DNA of 64,000 bases from Actinomycetota bacterium (lineage in GTDB: Bacteria > Actinomycetota > Acidimicrobiia > Acidimicrobiales > Ilumatobacteraceae), in the NCBI GenBank assembly GCA_005788815.1, contig SYAZ01000068.1:1-64000 (forward strand), in the 5' to 3' direction. Shown in pieces: positions 6,495 to 14,465 of this stretch. Position numbers and translations under genes: made by a program. Under the pieces are notes generated by a model. The model saw only the letters and a list, made by a program, of their open reading frames with translations. It was not told where the DNA came from and searched no databases. The stretch's first letter is position 1; every line of letters starts with the position of its first letter.

Positions 6495-6992
6495 ATGCGA
6501 AGCGCGCTCGTACTCAATGCAACGTACGAACCGCTCAGTGTCGTGTCTGCTCGTCGAGCCATCTGCTTGGTGTTGTGCGATAAAGCAGATGTAGTTGCCG
6601 ACGACGGCACCGAAATTCACTCAGAGAAATTGTCTATGGCCGGGCCAATAGTTATTCGATTGCGCTATGTGGTCAAGGTTCCTTATCACCGACATACCGC
6701 AATGTCTCGGCGCGCTGTGTTTGCGCGAGACAATCATCGGTGTGGCTATTGCGGCGAAACAGCCGACAGCATCGACCATGTCATGCCACGCTCACGAGGC
6801 GGAAAAAATGTATGGGAGAACGTCATCGCTGCATGTCGCGGTTGCAATTTGCGCAAGCGAGATCGGACACCAGAGGAGGCAGGCATGCACCTATCGACGG
6901 TGCCCCGCGCGCCTCGAGAAATGTCTTGGATCACTTATGCAGTACAGCGCGTACCAGAGGAGTGGAAGCCGTTCTTGGCTGAAGCAAGTTAA
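6495..6992 (+). CDS. HNH endonuclease
   Basis: 'CGYCGETADSIDHVMPRSRGGKNVWENVIAACRGCNLRKRDRTPEEAG'. Confidence 0.92.
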   Translation: MRSALVLNATYEPLSVVSARRAICLVLCDKADVVADDGTEIHSEKLSMAGPIVIRLRYVVKVPYHRHTAMSRRAVFARDNHRCGYCGETADSIDHVMPRSRGGKNVWENVIAACRGCNLRKRDRTPEEAGMHLSTVPRAPREMSWITYAVQRVPEEWKPFLAEAS

Positions 6993-7010: not shown

Positions 7011-7667
7011 ATGACGATGGCCTCGCTCTCTTGGTTGCGCCATAACTGGGTAGGCACGGCCAGTGATTTTCACTCGAAAGATCTGCCGGTACAACGTGCA
7101 TTGTGGTTGTGCTCAGCAGAGTCGCCGGCTCTGATTCTTGGATCAACACAAGATCATGCAGATGTACTCGTCGATGCGGCAGCGAATTCGGGAATCGAGA
7201 TTGTGCGCCGACGCAGTGGGGGCGGAGCGGTGTACGTAGCTCCCCATGATTCGGTGTGGCTAGATATCACAATCAGTAGAGAAGACCCGTTGTGGCAGGA
7301 CGATGTCAGCGCATCGATGATGTGGTTAGGCGATGTGTTTGTTCAAGCACTACGGCCATGGGTTCATGCGAAAACTTTCCGAGGAACATTTGACAACGGC
7401 GACATTGGTCGTGCCGTGTGTTTTGCAAGTGCAGCACCTGGCGAAGTTTTTGTGGGTGAAAACAAACTTGTTGGAATTAGTCAACGTCGAAACCGCGAGG
7501 GTGCTCGATTTCAATGTGTGTTGTATCGGCAATGGAATCCCCATGTCTGGACTTCACTGTTTGCATCGCTTGATGTTCAAAAACGAATACGCGATATGCA
7601 GGTGGCAACAATTGCTGCACCTGCGAGTGACATTGCTGATGCAGTGATGTCTGCCTTGCCGCACTGA
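7011..7667 (+). CDS. lipoate/biotin protein ligase family (LplA-like)
   Basis: 'PALILGSTQ', 'RRRSGGGAVYVAPHDSVWLDI', 'GENKLVGISQRR'. Confidence 0.82.
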   Translation: MTMASLSWLRHNWVGTASDFHSKDLPVQRALWLCSAESPALILGSTQDHADVLVDAAANSGIEIVRRRSGGGAVYVAPHDSVWLDITISREDPLWQDDVSASMMWLGDVFVQALRPWVHAKTFRGTFDNGDIGRAVCFASAAPGEVFVGENKLVGISQRRNREGARFQCVLYRQWNPHVWTSLFASLDVQKRIRDMQVATIAAPASDIADAVMSALPH

Positions 7668-7735
7668 CGCCGGCCTAAATCGTCAGCAGTTACAAATTTC
7701 AAACCACTTTTTGCGAACCCTTTTTGGCGTCCCAG

Positions 7736-7840
7736 TGGAGCCCGATTGGGGAGTTGTGGGGGCAGTGGGGAACAAAGTGGAGATAAATGGGTCAAGGTGG
7801 TTGACAGTGGGGCAAAGTGGGGATTAAGGTGACCCGTGGG
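7736..7840 (+). promoter_or_regulatory. array of about ten MraZ-type boxes (TGGG/TGGA/TGGT) with about 10-bp periodicity
   Basis: TGG at 7736, 7747, 7757, 7766, 7778, 7788, 7798, 7808, 7818, 7837; exact 10-bp spacing from 7778 to 7818; immediately upstream of mraZ. Confidence 0.8.
7801..7830 (+). promoter_or_regulatory. candidate SigA/HrdB-type promoter for the mra operon
   Basis: TTGACA (7801-7806), 18-bp spacer, TAAGGT (7825-7830); embedded in the box array. Confidence 0.5.
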
Positions 7841-7872
7841 AGGAGCGGAGTTCCCCCGGGAAGGCGGAGACT

Positions 7873-8289
7873 GTGTTTGTCGGAGTGCACGAGCGACAAC
7901 TCGACCCGAAAGGTCGTCTCGCTCTCCCTGCTGCATTTCGTCCCCGTCTCGAGCCGCGCTGTTACTTGGCCTTTGGCCGCGACAAGTGCATCGATGTTTT
8001 GACTGCTGAGGCATTTGAGCAGGTCGCTCAAGAGATGCTGGAGAAGGTTCGTAACGGCGAGATGTCGCTCAATGAGCGCCGTGCGCTTGCAGCCAACACC
8101 ATTGAAGTAACTATCGACGCCCAGGGTCGCATCAATATTGATGAAAAATTGCGTTCATACGCCGGAGTAGTGCTTGGCGAAAAAGTGGTCGTTGCCGGTT
8201 CTTTTGATCGCATTGAAATTTGGGAGCCCGTTCGTCACGAACGCAACATCAGCGTGGGCACCGAACAAATCGCTGGAGCGGGCGCGTGA
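7873..8289 (+). CDS. mraZ: transcriptional regulator MraZ
   Basis: 'FVGVHERQLDPKGRLALPAAFR', 'IEVTIDAQGRINIDEKLRSYAG'; first gene of dcw cluster. Confidence 0.95.
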   Translation: MFVGVHERQLDPKGRLALPAAFRPRLEPRCYLAFGRDKCIDVLTAEAFEQVAQEMLEKVRNGEMSLNERRALAANTIEVTIDAQGRINIDEKLRSYAGVVLGEKVVVAGSFDRIEIWEPVRHERNISVGTEQIAGAGA

Positions 8290-8474: not shown

Positions 8475-9425
8475 ATGAATGGCGCTTTCGAGCATGTCTC
8501 AGTGATGTTGCAAGAAGTCTGTGATGTGTTTGCAGACACCAATGAAGGAGTCTTTCTCGACGCCACTTTGGGTGGAGCGGGCCACAGTGCTGCGCTACTC
8601 GAGCGGCATCCACAATTGCGGCTCTTGGGGATCGACCAAGACGACACGGCTCTCGCTGCTGCTTCGCAAGTTCTGACAACTGCCGGTTACGGCGAGCGCG
8701 TGGCCCTCCGACGCGCCCGTTTTGATTCGGTGGCTTCCATCGTGGCCGAGGAGGGTATTGGTTCGTTGGCCGGTGCCCTCTTCGACCTCGGTGTCTCTTC
8801 GCCGCAATTTGATGTTGCCGAGCGTGGTTTCTCCTATCGATTTGATGCACCACTAGATATGCGAATGGACCAATCGCAGTCGTTCAGTGCAGACAATGTC
8901 GTCAATGAATACAACGTCATTGAGTTAACAAAAATGTTGCGTCGAAATGCAGACGAACGACATGCGCATCGCATTGCCCATGCCATCGTTGCTGCTCGAC
9001 CTATTCGATCCACAATGCAATTAAGTGATGTGGTGAGCGCAGCGATTCCTGCACCGGCACGACGTCGCGGTGGTCATCCTGCAAAGCGGTCTTTTCAAGC
9101 TATTCGCATTGAAGTCAACTCTGAACTGGCAATTCTTCCTGAAGCATTGCGCGCCACGATTGCGGCTCTTGCGCCCGGAGCGCGTCTCGCGGTATTGACA
9201 TATCACTCTGGTGAAGATCGGATTGTGAAGTCGGTTATGCGCTCTGCAGAAACCGGGAATTGTTCCTGTCCATCGCATCTTCCATGTGCTTGTGGTGCAG
9301 TGCGTTCGGTGCGTCGCATACGCGCTTCACGCGATGCAAGTACCGCAGAGCGTGAGAGTAATCCGCGTTCTACGTCGGCTCGTTTGCGGGTTGTTGAGAA
9401 ACTCAACGAAGGTGATGTGGAGTAG
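8475..9425 (+). CDS. rsmH: 16S rRNA (cytosine(1402)-N(4))-methyltransferase
   Basis: 'FEHVSVMLQEVCDVF', 'FLDATLGGAGHS', 'GALFDLGVSSPQFD', 'PAKRSFQAIRIEVN'; start at ATG 8475, not ORF start 8220. Confidence 0.95.
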   Translation: MNGAFEHVSVMLQEVCDVFADTNEGVFLDATLGGAGHSAALLERHPQLRLLGIDQDDTALAAASQVLTTAGYGERVALRRARFDSVASIVAEEGIGSLAGALFDLGVSSPQFDVAERGFSYRFDAPLDMRMDQSQSFSADNVVNEYNVIELTKMLRRNADERHAHRIAHAIVAARPIRSTMQLSDVVSAAIPAPARRRGGHPAKRSFQAIRIEVNSELAILPEALRATIAALAPGARLAVLTYHSGEDRIVKSVMRSAETGNCSCPSHLPCACGAVRSVRRIRASRDASTAERESNPRSTSARLRVVEKLNEGDVE

Positions 9426-9427
9426 TC

Positions 9428-9895
9428 ATGGCTGTCGCAGTACGTTCTACGACTCAGCGTCGCCCTCGTGAGTCGAGCGAGCAGCAGCCTCTGCTCACAC
9501 TTGTTCCAGAGACTGGGTTTAGTCACTGGCGGATCGCAGTAGTGGCTGTGTGTGGTCTCGTCGCCATGTTGGCGATTGTGACTTTGAATGTCAGTATGGC
9601 CCAACAACAGATGCGTCTTGATCGTCTGAATACAGATGTGTCCCGTGCTCGCGCGCACTTCGAAGAGCTACGCGCAGACCGTGCACAGTTGCAATCTCCT
9701 GTACATCTCATGAAAGAAGCTCGCGTTATTGGGCTTGTCCCAGCAATGGCGACCAAGACCGTCAATATCCCCGCAAGTATTGCGGCTGAGGTTGCAGCAA
9801 CGGTGGGAAAGATTGACGCAGACATCACTACTAAAGATGAGTCACCACTCGACAAGTTCGGTCGCATAAAAGCTGCAGTAGTGGGCAATCCATGA
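9428..9895 (+). CDS. ftsL: FtsL-like cell division protein
   Basis: Position between rsmH and ftsI, single TM plus coiled coil. Confidence 0.75.
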   Translation: MAVAVRSTTQRRPRESSEQQPLLTLVPETGFSHWRIAVVAVCGLVAMLAIVTLNVSMAQQQMRLDRLNTDVSRARAHFEELRADRAQLQSPVHLMKEARVIGLVPAMATKTVNIPASIAAEVAATVGKIDADITTKDESPLDKFGRIKAAVVGNP

Positions 9896-11958
9896 GTTCT
9901 TCAGAAGGATTTCAGCGAGGCAGTCGTTCACACGGCAGTCCATCGCAACGGTCATCGTCTGCTAGCCGTTCTAGATCACAAACTTCACAGCGAGCATCTA
10001 CTCGTCCAAATGAATCTCGCACACGGCCACGTTCTTCAGCAGGTTCCACAGCGGCTCGCCGTTCGGCAACGCATCAATCCTCTCGCTCCATTCGTCCACA
10101 ACCCTCAGCTCCTTCACCGTTTCAATCGCGCTTGGTCGATTTGTGGCGTGCGCTCAAGGTTTTTGTCTCTGGCGAAATCCCACCTGATCTGAAAGAGGGA
10201 AAAGTGACATCGTCGGCGGCGCACCAGGCCGTGCACCGTCGACTTGGTGTGTCATTTGTGATTCTTACTGCGATGCTGCTTATTGCTGCTGGACGAGTTG
10301 TTCTAGTACAGACAACGATGCGTGGTGACTACCTTGTCGCAAGTCTTGATCAGCGCACACGAATCAGTACTGTGCGAGCTGCCAGAGGTGTAATTTTTGA
10401 TCGGCACGGAAATGAGCTTGCTCTTTCTATTCCGAGTAGCACAGTGTTTGCCGACCCGCGTGACATTGAAGATTTTCCGGGTACGGCGCGCACGCTTGCT
10501 GTAGCACTTGGTTACACGCCAGAACAAGAAGCAAAACTACTGACGGCATTGTCGGCACCAGGGGAGAAGTTTCACTACATTGCTCGCCAATTAGACGAAC
10601 CTGCCGCACAAGGAATTTTGGGATTAGGTCTAAAAGGCATCTACTCATACACAGAACCTGCGCGTCAAGTAGAAGGTGGTGTGGCTGCTGCAATTATCGG
10701 ACGTACAGATCCTGACGGCGTTGGCACAAGCGGTTTAGAGAAACAGTTCAATAAAAACTTGACTGGTCTAGATGGCCGATTGCAACGCGAAGTCTCGAAG
10801 AAGGGCGGTGCGATAGCTGGAAGCAGTCAAACAATTGTGGCACCAGTTCCTGGTGACGACATTGTTCTCACTATTGATAAAAACATTCAGTTTCAAACTG
10901 ACTCTGTGTTGATGGAGCGGGTGGGGCGCCTGAATGCAAAGGGTGGGACTGCGATTGTGATGAACAGTCGTACTGGTGAGATCTATGCCATGTCAAATGT
11001 GCGTCGTGATGATTCAGGGGCTGTCGTTATGGCGACTGGAAACTTTGCCGCCGTCGAAGCATATGAACCTGGATCTGTAGCAAAAGTATTTAGTGTCAGC
11101 GCTGCGTTGAACGAAGGAACGGTAAATGCAGACACGGTTATGAAAGTTCCAGGCATCATTGAAGTTGACAAGTTTCTGATTCGTGATGCATGGCCGCATG
11201 GAGTCATAGACATGAGTGTTCGTTCCATTGTGTCTGAAAGCTCGAACATCGGCACCATAATGACTGCTCAAACAGTGAAGACGTCAACACTGCATGATTA
11301 TTTGTCTGCCTTTGGTTTTGGTAGGAAGACAGGTCTGAACTATCCAGGCGAAAGTCGCGGCATTTTGCGCGATGCCAACAAATGGCGTGGTACAGAAAAA
11401 TTCACCGTGTCGTATGGCTACGGATTGGCAGTGACGCCATTACAGATGATTGCTGGGGTGAACACCGTGGCCAACAACGGTACGTATATCGCACCAAAAC
11501 TGGTCAGTGCCACTATCGACAAATCAGGAATTCGTCGCGAAGTGAAGGGTTCCACAACCCGACAGGTGTTGAAGCCGGAAACTGCGGCCACGATGCAAAG
11601 TATGTTGCGTGATGTGGTGTGCACAGGTACAGGTGAACAGGCCCAAGTTAAGGGAATGGAAATAGCTGGCAAGACGGGTACTGGATACAAGGTGCAATCA
11701 AACGGCACCTATCAAACTGATGCTGGTGGCCGTAAATACTTCGCTTCCTTTGCAGGTTTCTTTCCCGCTTCATCCCCTGAAGTAACAATTCTTGTCAGTA
11801 TCGACGAACCAGACGCATATTCGCGTGACCGTTTTGGCGGCACCGCGGCTGCGCCGGTATTCGCGCGTCTAGTCCCCGCAATCATGCATGAATTAGGTAT
11901 TGAAGCAACCGGAGCAGGGACCGGATGCAAGGCAGGCGCTACGCCAGCAGGGCTCTAA
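9892..11958 (+). CDS. ftsI: penicillin-binding protein / peptidoglycan transpeptidase
   Basis: 'ARGVIFDRHGNELALS', 'YEPGSVAKVF', 'SESSNIGTI', 'AGKTGTGYK'. Confidence 0.94.
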   Translation: MSSSEGFQRGSRSHGSPSQRSSSASRSRSQTSQRASTRPNESRTRPRSSAGSTAARRSATHQSSRSIRPQPSAPSPFQSRLVDLWRALKVFVSGEIPPDLKEGKVTSSAAHQAVHRRLGVSFVILTAMLLIAAGRVVLVQTTMRGDYLVASLDQRTRISTVRAARGVIFDRHGNELALSIPSSTVFADPRDIEDFPGTARTLAVALGYTPEQEAKLLTALSAPGEKFHYIARQLDEPAAQGILGLGLKGIYSYTEPARQVEGGVAAAIIGRTDPDGVGTSGLEKQFNKNLTGLDGRLQREVSKKGGAIAGSSQTIVAPVPGDDIVLTIDKNIQFQTDSVLMERVGRLNAKGGTAIVMNSRTGEIYAMSNVRRDDSGAVVMATGNFAAVEAYEPGSVAKVFSVSAALNEGTVNADTVMKVPGIIEVDKFLIRDAWPHGVIDMSVRSIVSESSNIGTIMTAQTVKTSTLHDYLSAFGFGRKTGLNYPGESRGILRDANKWRGTEKFTVSYGYGLAVTPLQMIAGVNTVANNGTYIAPKLVSATIDKSGIRREVKGSTTRQVLKPETAATMQSMLRDVVCTGTGEQAQVKGMEIAGKTGTGYKVQSNGTYQTDAGGRKYFASFAGFFPASSPEVTILVSIDEPDAYSRDRFGGTAAAPVFARLVPAIMHELGIEATGAGTGCKAGATPAGL

Positions 11959-13410: not shown

Positions 13411-14465
13411 TCGCAGTTCTCATTGCTGGTTCAGTATCGATGATTTTTTCGCTATTCGGAACACGGTGGCTCATTGCCATTTTTGATTCATTAGGCAAGG
13501 GTCAACCCATCCTTGGTTCAGAAGATCACGGCCCAGTGCATCACATGAAGAAGCAGGGCACAGCGACCATGGGTGGCATCGCCATCATTTTTGCCGCCTT
13601 CATCGGATGGCTGGTTGCTCACTTGCGCGGAGGTATCGCGCTTTCTGACCAAGCAATGATTATGTGGGCCGGTGTTGGGGTCTTGTCACTGATGGGCTTC
13701 CTAGATGATTTTCTCAAAGTGAGAAAATCGCATAACCGTGGAATTCTCTGGAAGAAGAAGGGCTACATCACGTTTGCAATAGTGCTTGGCCTGATGTGGT
13801 GGTTGATGGCCGGGACTGGAATCAGCGAAACACTGTCTTTTACCCGCTCTGATTTTCCTGGTTGGAATTTGTCTCCCGTTTTGTGGGTGGTGTGGACTGC
13901 CGTCATGGTGTGGGCCACCACTAATGCGGTGAACGTCACTGATGGCCTAGACGGTCTCGCTGCAGGGTCGGCATTGTTTGGCTTTTTAGCTTTCACAGTG
14001 ATTGCGTATTGGGGATTTCGTAATCCTGACGTGTACAACCTGGTCAACCCACTTGACCTCGCTGTCTTCTCTGCAGCAATGGCTGGCGCGTGTGGAGGAT
14101 TCCTTTGGTGGAATGCTGCGCCTGCTCGCATCTTCATGGGAGATGTTGGTGCACTTGGTATCGGCGCGGCACTCGGGCTCTTGGCCGTTGCAACAAACAC
14201 CCATATGTTGCTTCCATTGATTTGTGCGCTCAACGTGATGGAGGCCGGATCTGTTGCACTGCAGATGGGGGTATTCAAGGCATCGGGGCGCAAGAAGCGA
14301 CTATTTAAAATGTCGCCTATCCATCACCATTTCGAATTACTTGGTTGGCCCGAGACCACTGTCATTATTCGTTTCTGGATACTTTCTGGAATTTGTGTCG
14401 CTGTTGCCGTAGGGCTGTTCATCGCAGACTTCACAAACATCGCCGATAATTTTGCGGGACGATGA
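13407..14465 (+). CDS. mraY: phospho-N-acetylmuramoyl-pentapeptide-transferase
   Basis: 'KKQGTATMGGIAII', 'NAVNVTDGLDGLAAG', 'KMSPIHHHFELLGWPE'. Confidence 0.96.
   Translation: MIAVLIAGSVSMIFSLFGTRWLIAIFDSLGKGQPILGSEDHGPVHHMKKQGTATMGGIAIIFAAFIGWLVAHLRGGIALSDQAMIMWAGVGVLSLMGFLDDFLKVRKSHNRGILWKKKGYITFAIVLGLMWWLMAGTGISETLSFTRSDFPGWNLSPVLWVVWTAVMVWATTNAVNVTDGLDGLAAGSALFGFLAFTVIAYWGFRNPDVYNLVNPLDLAVFSAAMAGACGGFLWWNAAPARIFMGDVGALGIGAALGLLAVATNTHMLLPLICALNVMEAGSVALQMGVFKASGRKKRLFKMSPIHHHFELLGWPETTVIIRFWILSGICVAVAVGLFIADFTNIADNFAGR

Follow-up and report, generated by a model that had tools for sequence, protein, structure and literature searches.

A putative MraZ operator-promoter at the head of the dcw cluster

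Directly upstream of mraZ, at the head of the dcw cluster of an Ilumatobacteraceae genome (Acidimicrobiia; 1.53 Mb, 68% complete), lies an array of TGG-core boxes. Very probably, the array and the promoter within it form an extended, Acidimicrobiia version of the MraZ operator-promoter of this cluster; by occupying the -35 element and the promoter spacer, MraZ would repress its own gene. As a near-universal regulator, MraZ controls the cluster of division and cell-wall genes. All coordinates below refer to the window, the whole stretch of 64,000 nucleotides that was analysed, and the array, the promoter and the genes from mraZ to the ftsI-type gene lie on its forward strand. A preliminary description of this DNA had proposed about ten MraZ boxes over the mraZ promoter, consistent with autorepression. 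The operator over the promoter and the autorepression are both supported by our results, whereas the number of boxes is not.

The gene downstream of the array (7873-8289; PF02381) has a GTG start and encodes a protein of 138 aa, the presumed array binder. It is followed by the next dcw gene, rsmH (mraW), at 8475-9425 (the ATG at 8475 is taken as the start; PF01795, E 7.9e-102), and by an ftsI-type penicillin-binding protein gene of the same cluster at 9892-11958 (PF00905, E 7.5e-66, and PF03717). On the other side, a lipoate-protein-ligase-like ORF (7011-7667; PF21948, PF03099) adjoins the mraZ promoter and ends about 90 bp ahead of the first conserved box. An HNH-endonuclease-like ORF (6495-6992; PF14279, PF01844) lies upstream of it in the same direction.

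The mraZ product matches PF02381 over two stretches (E 1.2e-19; 70.5 bits against a cut-off of 23), corresponding to the two AbrB-like repeats, each with its conserved basic loop, that mark the MraZ family. The loops, LDPKGR and IDAQGR, are near-invariant overall in 17 homologues, and their DxKGR and DxQGR motifs are invariant. The NCBIfam model TIGR00242 also hits the protein, below its cut-off (E 2.4e-21; 76.2 bits against 98.35). The predicted monomer fold has a pLDDT of 87.9, and its best structural matches are all MraZ proteins of M. genitalium and M. pneumoniae. Those to M. genitalium MraZ 9qlg, 9r4j and 9sz7 have TM scores of 0.74-0.77 and include a promoter complex (9r4j) and a '4 box promoter' complex (9sz7). 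From predicted fold and synteny, the window gene would be a divergent but clear member of the MraZ family.

Five boxes at exactly 10 bp

Reading the sequence confirmed the ten TGG cores listed previously, at 7736, 7747, 7757, 7766, 7778, 7788, 7798, 7808, 7818 and 7837, as well as the AAAGTGG contexts at 7778 and 7818 and the AAGGTGG context at 7798. The successive steps are 11, 10, 9, 12, 10, 10, 10, 10 and 19 bp. The term "10-bp-periodic array" is thus accurate for the five boxes from 7778 to 7818, which are spaced by exactly 10 bp as had been stated, but it does not hold for the remaining steps (11, 10, 9, 12 and 19 bp). Likewise, the proposed "about ten boxes" over about 100 bp reduce to a defensible set of about seven boxes that together span about 65 bp, the cores at 7736, 7747 and 7837 drifting freely.

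The periodicity is not a product of chance. In 20,000 dinucleotide shuffles of the 220 bp upstream of mraZ, a chain of five TGG at exactly 10 bp was never obtained, nor was a chain of ten TGG at steps of 9-12 bp, as found at 7725-7818; a chain of five at steps of 9-11 bp was obtained twice. Genome-wide, four TGG at 10 bp gave two overlapping matches at the array and two single matches elsewhere, at C39:1823 and at window position 13787. Three GTGG at 10 bp matched only once in the 1.53 Mb genome, at the mraZ array, as would be expected for a local autoregulator. Twelve other two-box RTGGG matches were found as candidate further MraZ targets, and none of the nine that were inspected had a comparable array. 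An Rfam search returned nothing at 7600-8000.

Conservation of individual boxes in the genus

Relatives were retrieved with the window's MraZ and are mainly MAGs from lakes and reservoirs, several of them labelled Ilumatobacteraceae. When the mraZ upstream regions of 21 genus members were anchored on the TTGACA element, the five boxes of the exact-10 block (7778-7821) proved to be conserved in 81-100% of the sequences, counts which are not independent samples because the sequences share ancestry. TGG is present in all 21 members at 7778 (position -23 from TTGACA; 100%) and at 7818 (+17; 100%), in 20 at 7798 (-3; 95%), in 19 at 7808 (+7; 90%) and in 17 at 7788 (-13; 81%). The two boxes of an upstream block (7757-7769) are less strictly kept: 16 of the 21 members have TGG at 7766 (-35; 76%), and 14 have it at the 7757 box, at -44 or -45 taken together (about 67%; 29% in the register of the window and 38% one base off).

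Mean pairwise identity is 0.96 in the TGG columns of the five-box block, 0.61 in the linkers and 0.34-0.43 in the flanks. This contrast is taken within the same sequences, and so does not depend on the genus members being independent samples. By comparison, the outer cores at 7736 and 7747 (7736-7750) are unconserved: fewer than 15% of the genus members have TGG in these slots, where column identity (0.31-0.34) is at flank level, suggesting that they are probably not functional boxes. The core at 7837-7839, near the predicted transcription start, is also unconserved at its own position; four of 21 members have a TGG one base away.

A promoter threaded through the array

The candidate promoter that had been placed inside the array is borne out by conservation. 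It consists of a -35 element TTGACA at 7801-7806, an 18-nt spacer and a -10 element TAAGGT at 7825-7830, of the actinobacterial TAnnnT type. TTGACA is 100% conserved in the genus and sits in the linker from box 7798 to box 7808, while the spacer holds boxes 7808 and 7818. A TAnnnT motif lies 17 or 18 nt past TTGACA in 20 of the 21 genus members, and at any other offset in at most two. A scan with the sigma-70 consensus did not match this promoter, since TAAGGT agrees with TATAAT at three positions only, and the promoter call is therefore based on conservation.

In the proposed mechanism, each ATGG/GTGGGG box would be read by one MraZ subunit, or by a half-ring contact. The five boxes of the exact-10 block are distributed across the promoter: two are upstream of the -35 element, a third adjoins it and the last two fill the -35/-10 spacer. 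One or two further boxes lie upstream, past the 12-bp step. Once assembled on the five-box block, MraZ would mask both the -35 element and the spacer and keep RNA polymerase away, so that mraZ and the dcw genes behind it would be under negative autoregulation. RNA polymerase could hardly occupy the promoter while a protein sits on these boxes, so that autorepression is the interpretation that suggests itself. According to the summary in PMC8475190, MraZ has been shown to repress its own gene in other bacteria, and work cited in PMC7761207 reports that MraZ of C. glutamicum acts as a regulator. Our literature search found no MraZ binding or expression results for Acidimicrobiia. We infer MraZ binding to the array, repression by this binding and its stoichiometry.

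A conserved 12-bp step separates two blocks

The linker at 7769-7777 sets box 7766 12 bp away from box 7778, and this step is conserved: among 15 instances in the genus of a box 8-14 bp upstream of the exact-10 block, 14 have it at 12 bp. Other family and class members show no single step past the exact block: on its upstream side 9, 11, 12 and other values occur, and on its downstream side mostly 11 or 12 bp. Pooled distances between boxes peak at 10, 20 and 30 bp, then at 31-32, 41-42, 51-52 and 61-62 bp. Four steps of 10 bp and one of 12 bp add up to 52 bp over five steps. B-DNA makes one turn per 10.5 bp, so that 52 bp is close to five turns and the 12-bp step restores the helical phase. 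This arrangement suggests two blocks that would each receive one MraZ assembly, and binding by two assemblies is possible. That two assemblies, one on each block, would bind cooperatively and give steep autorepression, the extended and promoter-threaded design being a trait of the Acidimicrobiia lineage, is a tentative proposal that is rather unlikely to hold in full.

Distribution across Actinomycetota

The comparison was extended to a de-duplicated set of about 170 upstream regions: the 21 of the genus, 68 from other members of the family (including L079, which is labelled Acidimicrobiia only), 40 from the rest of the class and 40 from the rest of the phylum. Pairs of TGG at 10 bp were in large excess over shuffled sequences at each level, with 79 observed against 5.7 in the genus, 176 against 14.7 in the rest of the family, 89 against 9.2 in the rest of the class and 83 against 4.2 in the rest of the phylum. 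The periodicity was thus retained in close relatives, where its loss would have argued against the proposed array. Conservation at these four levels supports the assignment as a putative MraZ-box operator, the promoter call and the autorepression that the operator would mediate. The array has what is expected of an MraZ operator, namely at least three direct repeats with a GTG or TGG core at about 10 bp (here five at exactly 10 bp), a location upstream of mraZ and overlapping its promoter, and conservation in related genomes (about 170 upstream regions).

The chains differ in length. Tolerating one missing slot, the genus has a median of six boxes per chain (range 4-11; median span 61 bp), the rest of the family five (maximum 10; 61.5 bp), the rest of the class five (maximum 10; 60.5 bp) and the rest of the phylum four (maximum 8; 31 bp). 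Three to four boxes at 10 bp are typical across Actinomycetota. Since long chains occur throughout the family and class, they reflect an Acidimicrobiia tendency and are not peculiar to the source genome.

Several variants were apparent in this set. Sister genera (L071-L075, L058-L064) have four boxes spaced by 10, 20 and 10 bp; where a CTTG(C/T)A element was recognised (e.g. L058-L061, L063), it occupies the slot of the third box. Their layout may be a simpler, ancestral form that preceded the five-box block. In four class members with small genomes of about 1 Mb (L136, L141, L163, L164), the boxes read GTGTC, e.g. AGTGTCATATAGTGTCATATAATG, which is nearer to the Mollicutes AAAGTG[T/G] than to GTGGGG. 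The box sequence thus changes within the class, and the 10-bp spacing appears to be retained. In L079 and several family members (e.g. L095, L104, L106), AGGGG replaces TGGGG in some slots while the register is kept; some boxes may thus not require the T of TGG, and these slots make the exact box requirement uncertain.

Some database names in the set call for caution. Four MAG contigs titled 'Bifidobacterium breve' (L034, L036, L038 and L053; CAMDLK01, CAMDVC01, CAMDBY01 and CAMAWR01) encode MraZ proteins 72-88% identical to that of the window and carry the same promoter array; their organism names look wrong. The names of L056 (Acidimicrobium ferrooxidans DSM 10331 isolate) and L074 (Ferrithrix thermotolerans DSM 19514 isolate) are similarly doubtful.

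Alternative readings of the array

The array could be the site of another direct-repeat regulator, such as a BldC-like protein or MtrA. BldC binds direct repeats head to tail in variable number, an organisation that allows cooperative multimer binding and to which the window array bears a likeness (PMC6428758), and work on MtrAB in an actinobacterium found that MtrA binds the mraZ upstream region (PMC9602371). However, BldC is unrelated to MraZ, and its repeat, AATT(N3-4)(C/G) (PMC6428758), is missing from the window array, there being no AATT within 7736-7840. Moreover, the box corresponds to the MraZ site known from the literature and is found with mraZ genes phylum-wide, while the confinement of three GTGG at 10 bp to mraZ in this genome is unlike what a global regulator would leave. 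We thus consider another regulator very improbable.

A G-quadruplex on the G-rich strand, regulating mraZ transcription, is slightly less probable still. The array contains several GGGG runs, and a functional G4 motif with claimed wide conservation has been described at the S. aureus mraZ promoter (PMC11796246). In the window's mraZ upstream region, however, the four-tract G3+ motif (loops of 1-7 nt) is absent, and it occurs in only one of 21 upstream regions of the genus, 22 of 68 of the family, 7 of 40 of the class and one of 40 of the phylum. At least three TGG at exactly 10 bp are present in 20, 40, 23 and 29 of these regions, respectively. The conserved trait is therefore TGG in 10-bp phase and not the number of G-tracts or the length of loops, and the quadruplex was rejected in the four-tract G3+ form that was tested, a motif that the window's upstream region lacks and that is seldom seen in those of the genus and phylum.

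Finally, that the periodic TGGs are a by-product of a recent short-unit tandem duplication or of G-rich composition is barely credible: G-rich promoters do yield chance TGG, which does explain the unconserved cores at 7736, 7747 and 7837, but composition-preserving dinucleotide shuffles fail to reproduce the array, and tandem duplication was rejected because Tandem Repeats Finder reported no repeat at a score of 30 and the linkers differ from box to box and drift between species while the boxes stay.

Discussion

The putative MraZ operator described here belongs to a well-known type of switch. The Mollicutes MraZ operator is given as (AAAGTGKN3)3 in PMC5282649 (Fisunov 2016, cited there and in PMC8475190) and its box as AAAGTG[T/G] in PMC8475190, so that the likening of the window boxes to AAAGTG-type sites in the preliminary description was correct. 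The window boxes agree with the sites described in the literature, both (AAAGTGKN3)n and the GTG repeats, in which a 7-nt repeat is followed by a 3-nt spacer (PMC5282649, PMC8475190, PMC7761207). The window and Mollicutes operators share direct repeats with a GTG or TGG core, a 10-bp period, a location upstream of mraZ and a homologous MraZ fold (TM about 0.75). They differ in that the window has GTGGGG boxes, five at exactly 10 bp and two past a 12-bp step, and has its -35 element and spacer within the array.

In B. cenocepacia, PmraBc carries four 7-nt repeats with 3-nt spacers, to which MraZ binds in EMSA (PMC7761207). The 10-bp period is the same, but these repeats lie downstream of the -10 element, over the transcription start, whereas the window boxes lie upstream of the -10 element and around the -35 element. 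The arrays of the 40 other Actinomycetota genomes of the phylum group have the same box and period directly upstream of mraZ, yet with a median of four boxes over 31 bp against six over 61 bp in the window's genus, and with the boxes nearer to the -10 element or past it in several examples judged by eye.

The published arrays that we found have three repeats (Mollicutes, PMC5282649) or four (B. cenocepacia, PMC7761207), and the approximately seven conserved sites of the window, in two blocks, exceed both. On sequence grounds, we read the array as the known MraZ operator, extended, interleaved with the promoter and split into two blocks. For annotation, a G-rich stretch ahead of mraZ in this lineage would thus be read as an operator, a quadruplex being unlikely. 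All together, the exact-10 block, the 12-bp step and the family variants with four to about ten boxes make up a ready series in which the roles of box number, phase and cooperativity in MraZ control of the dcw cluster may be approached.
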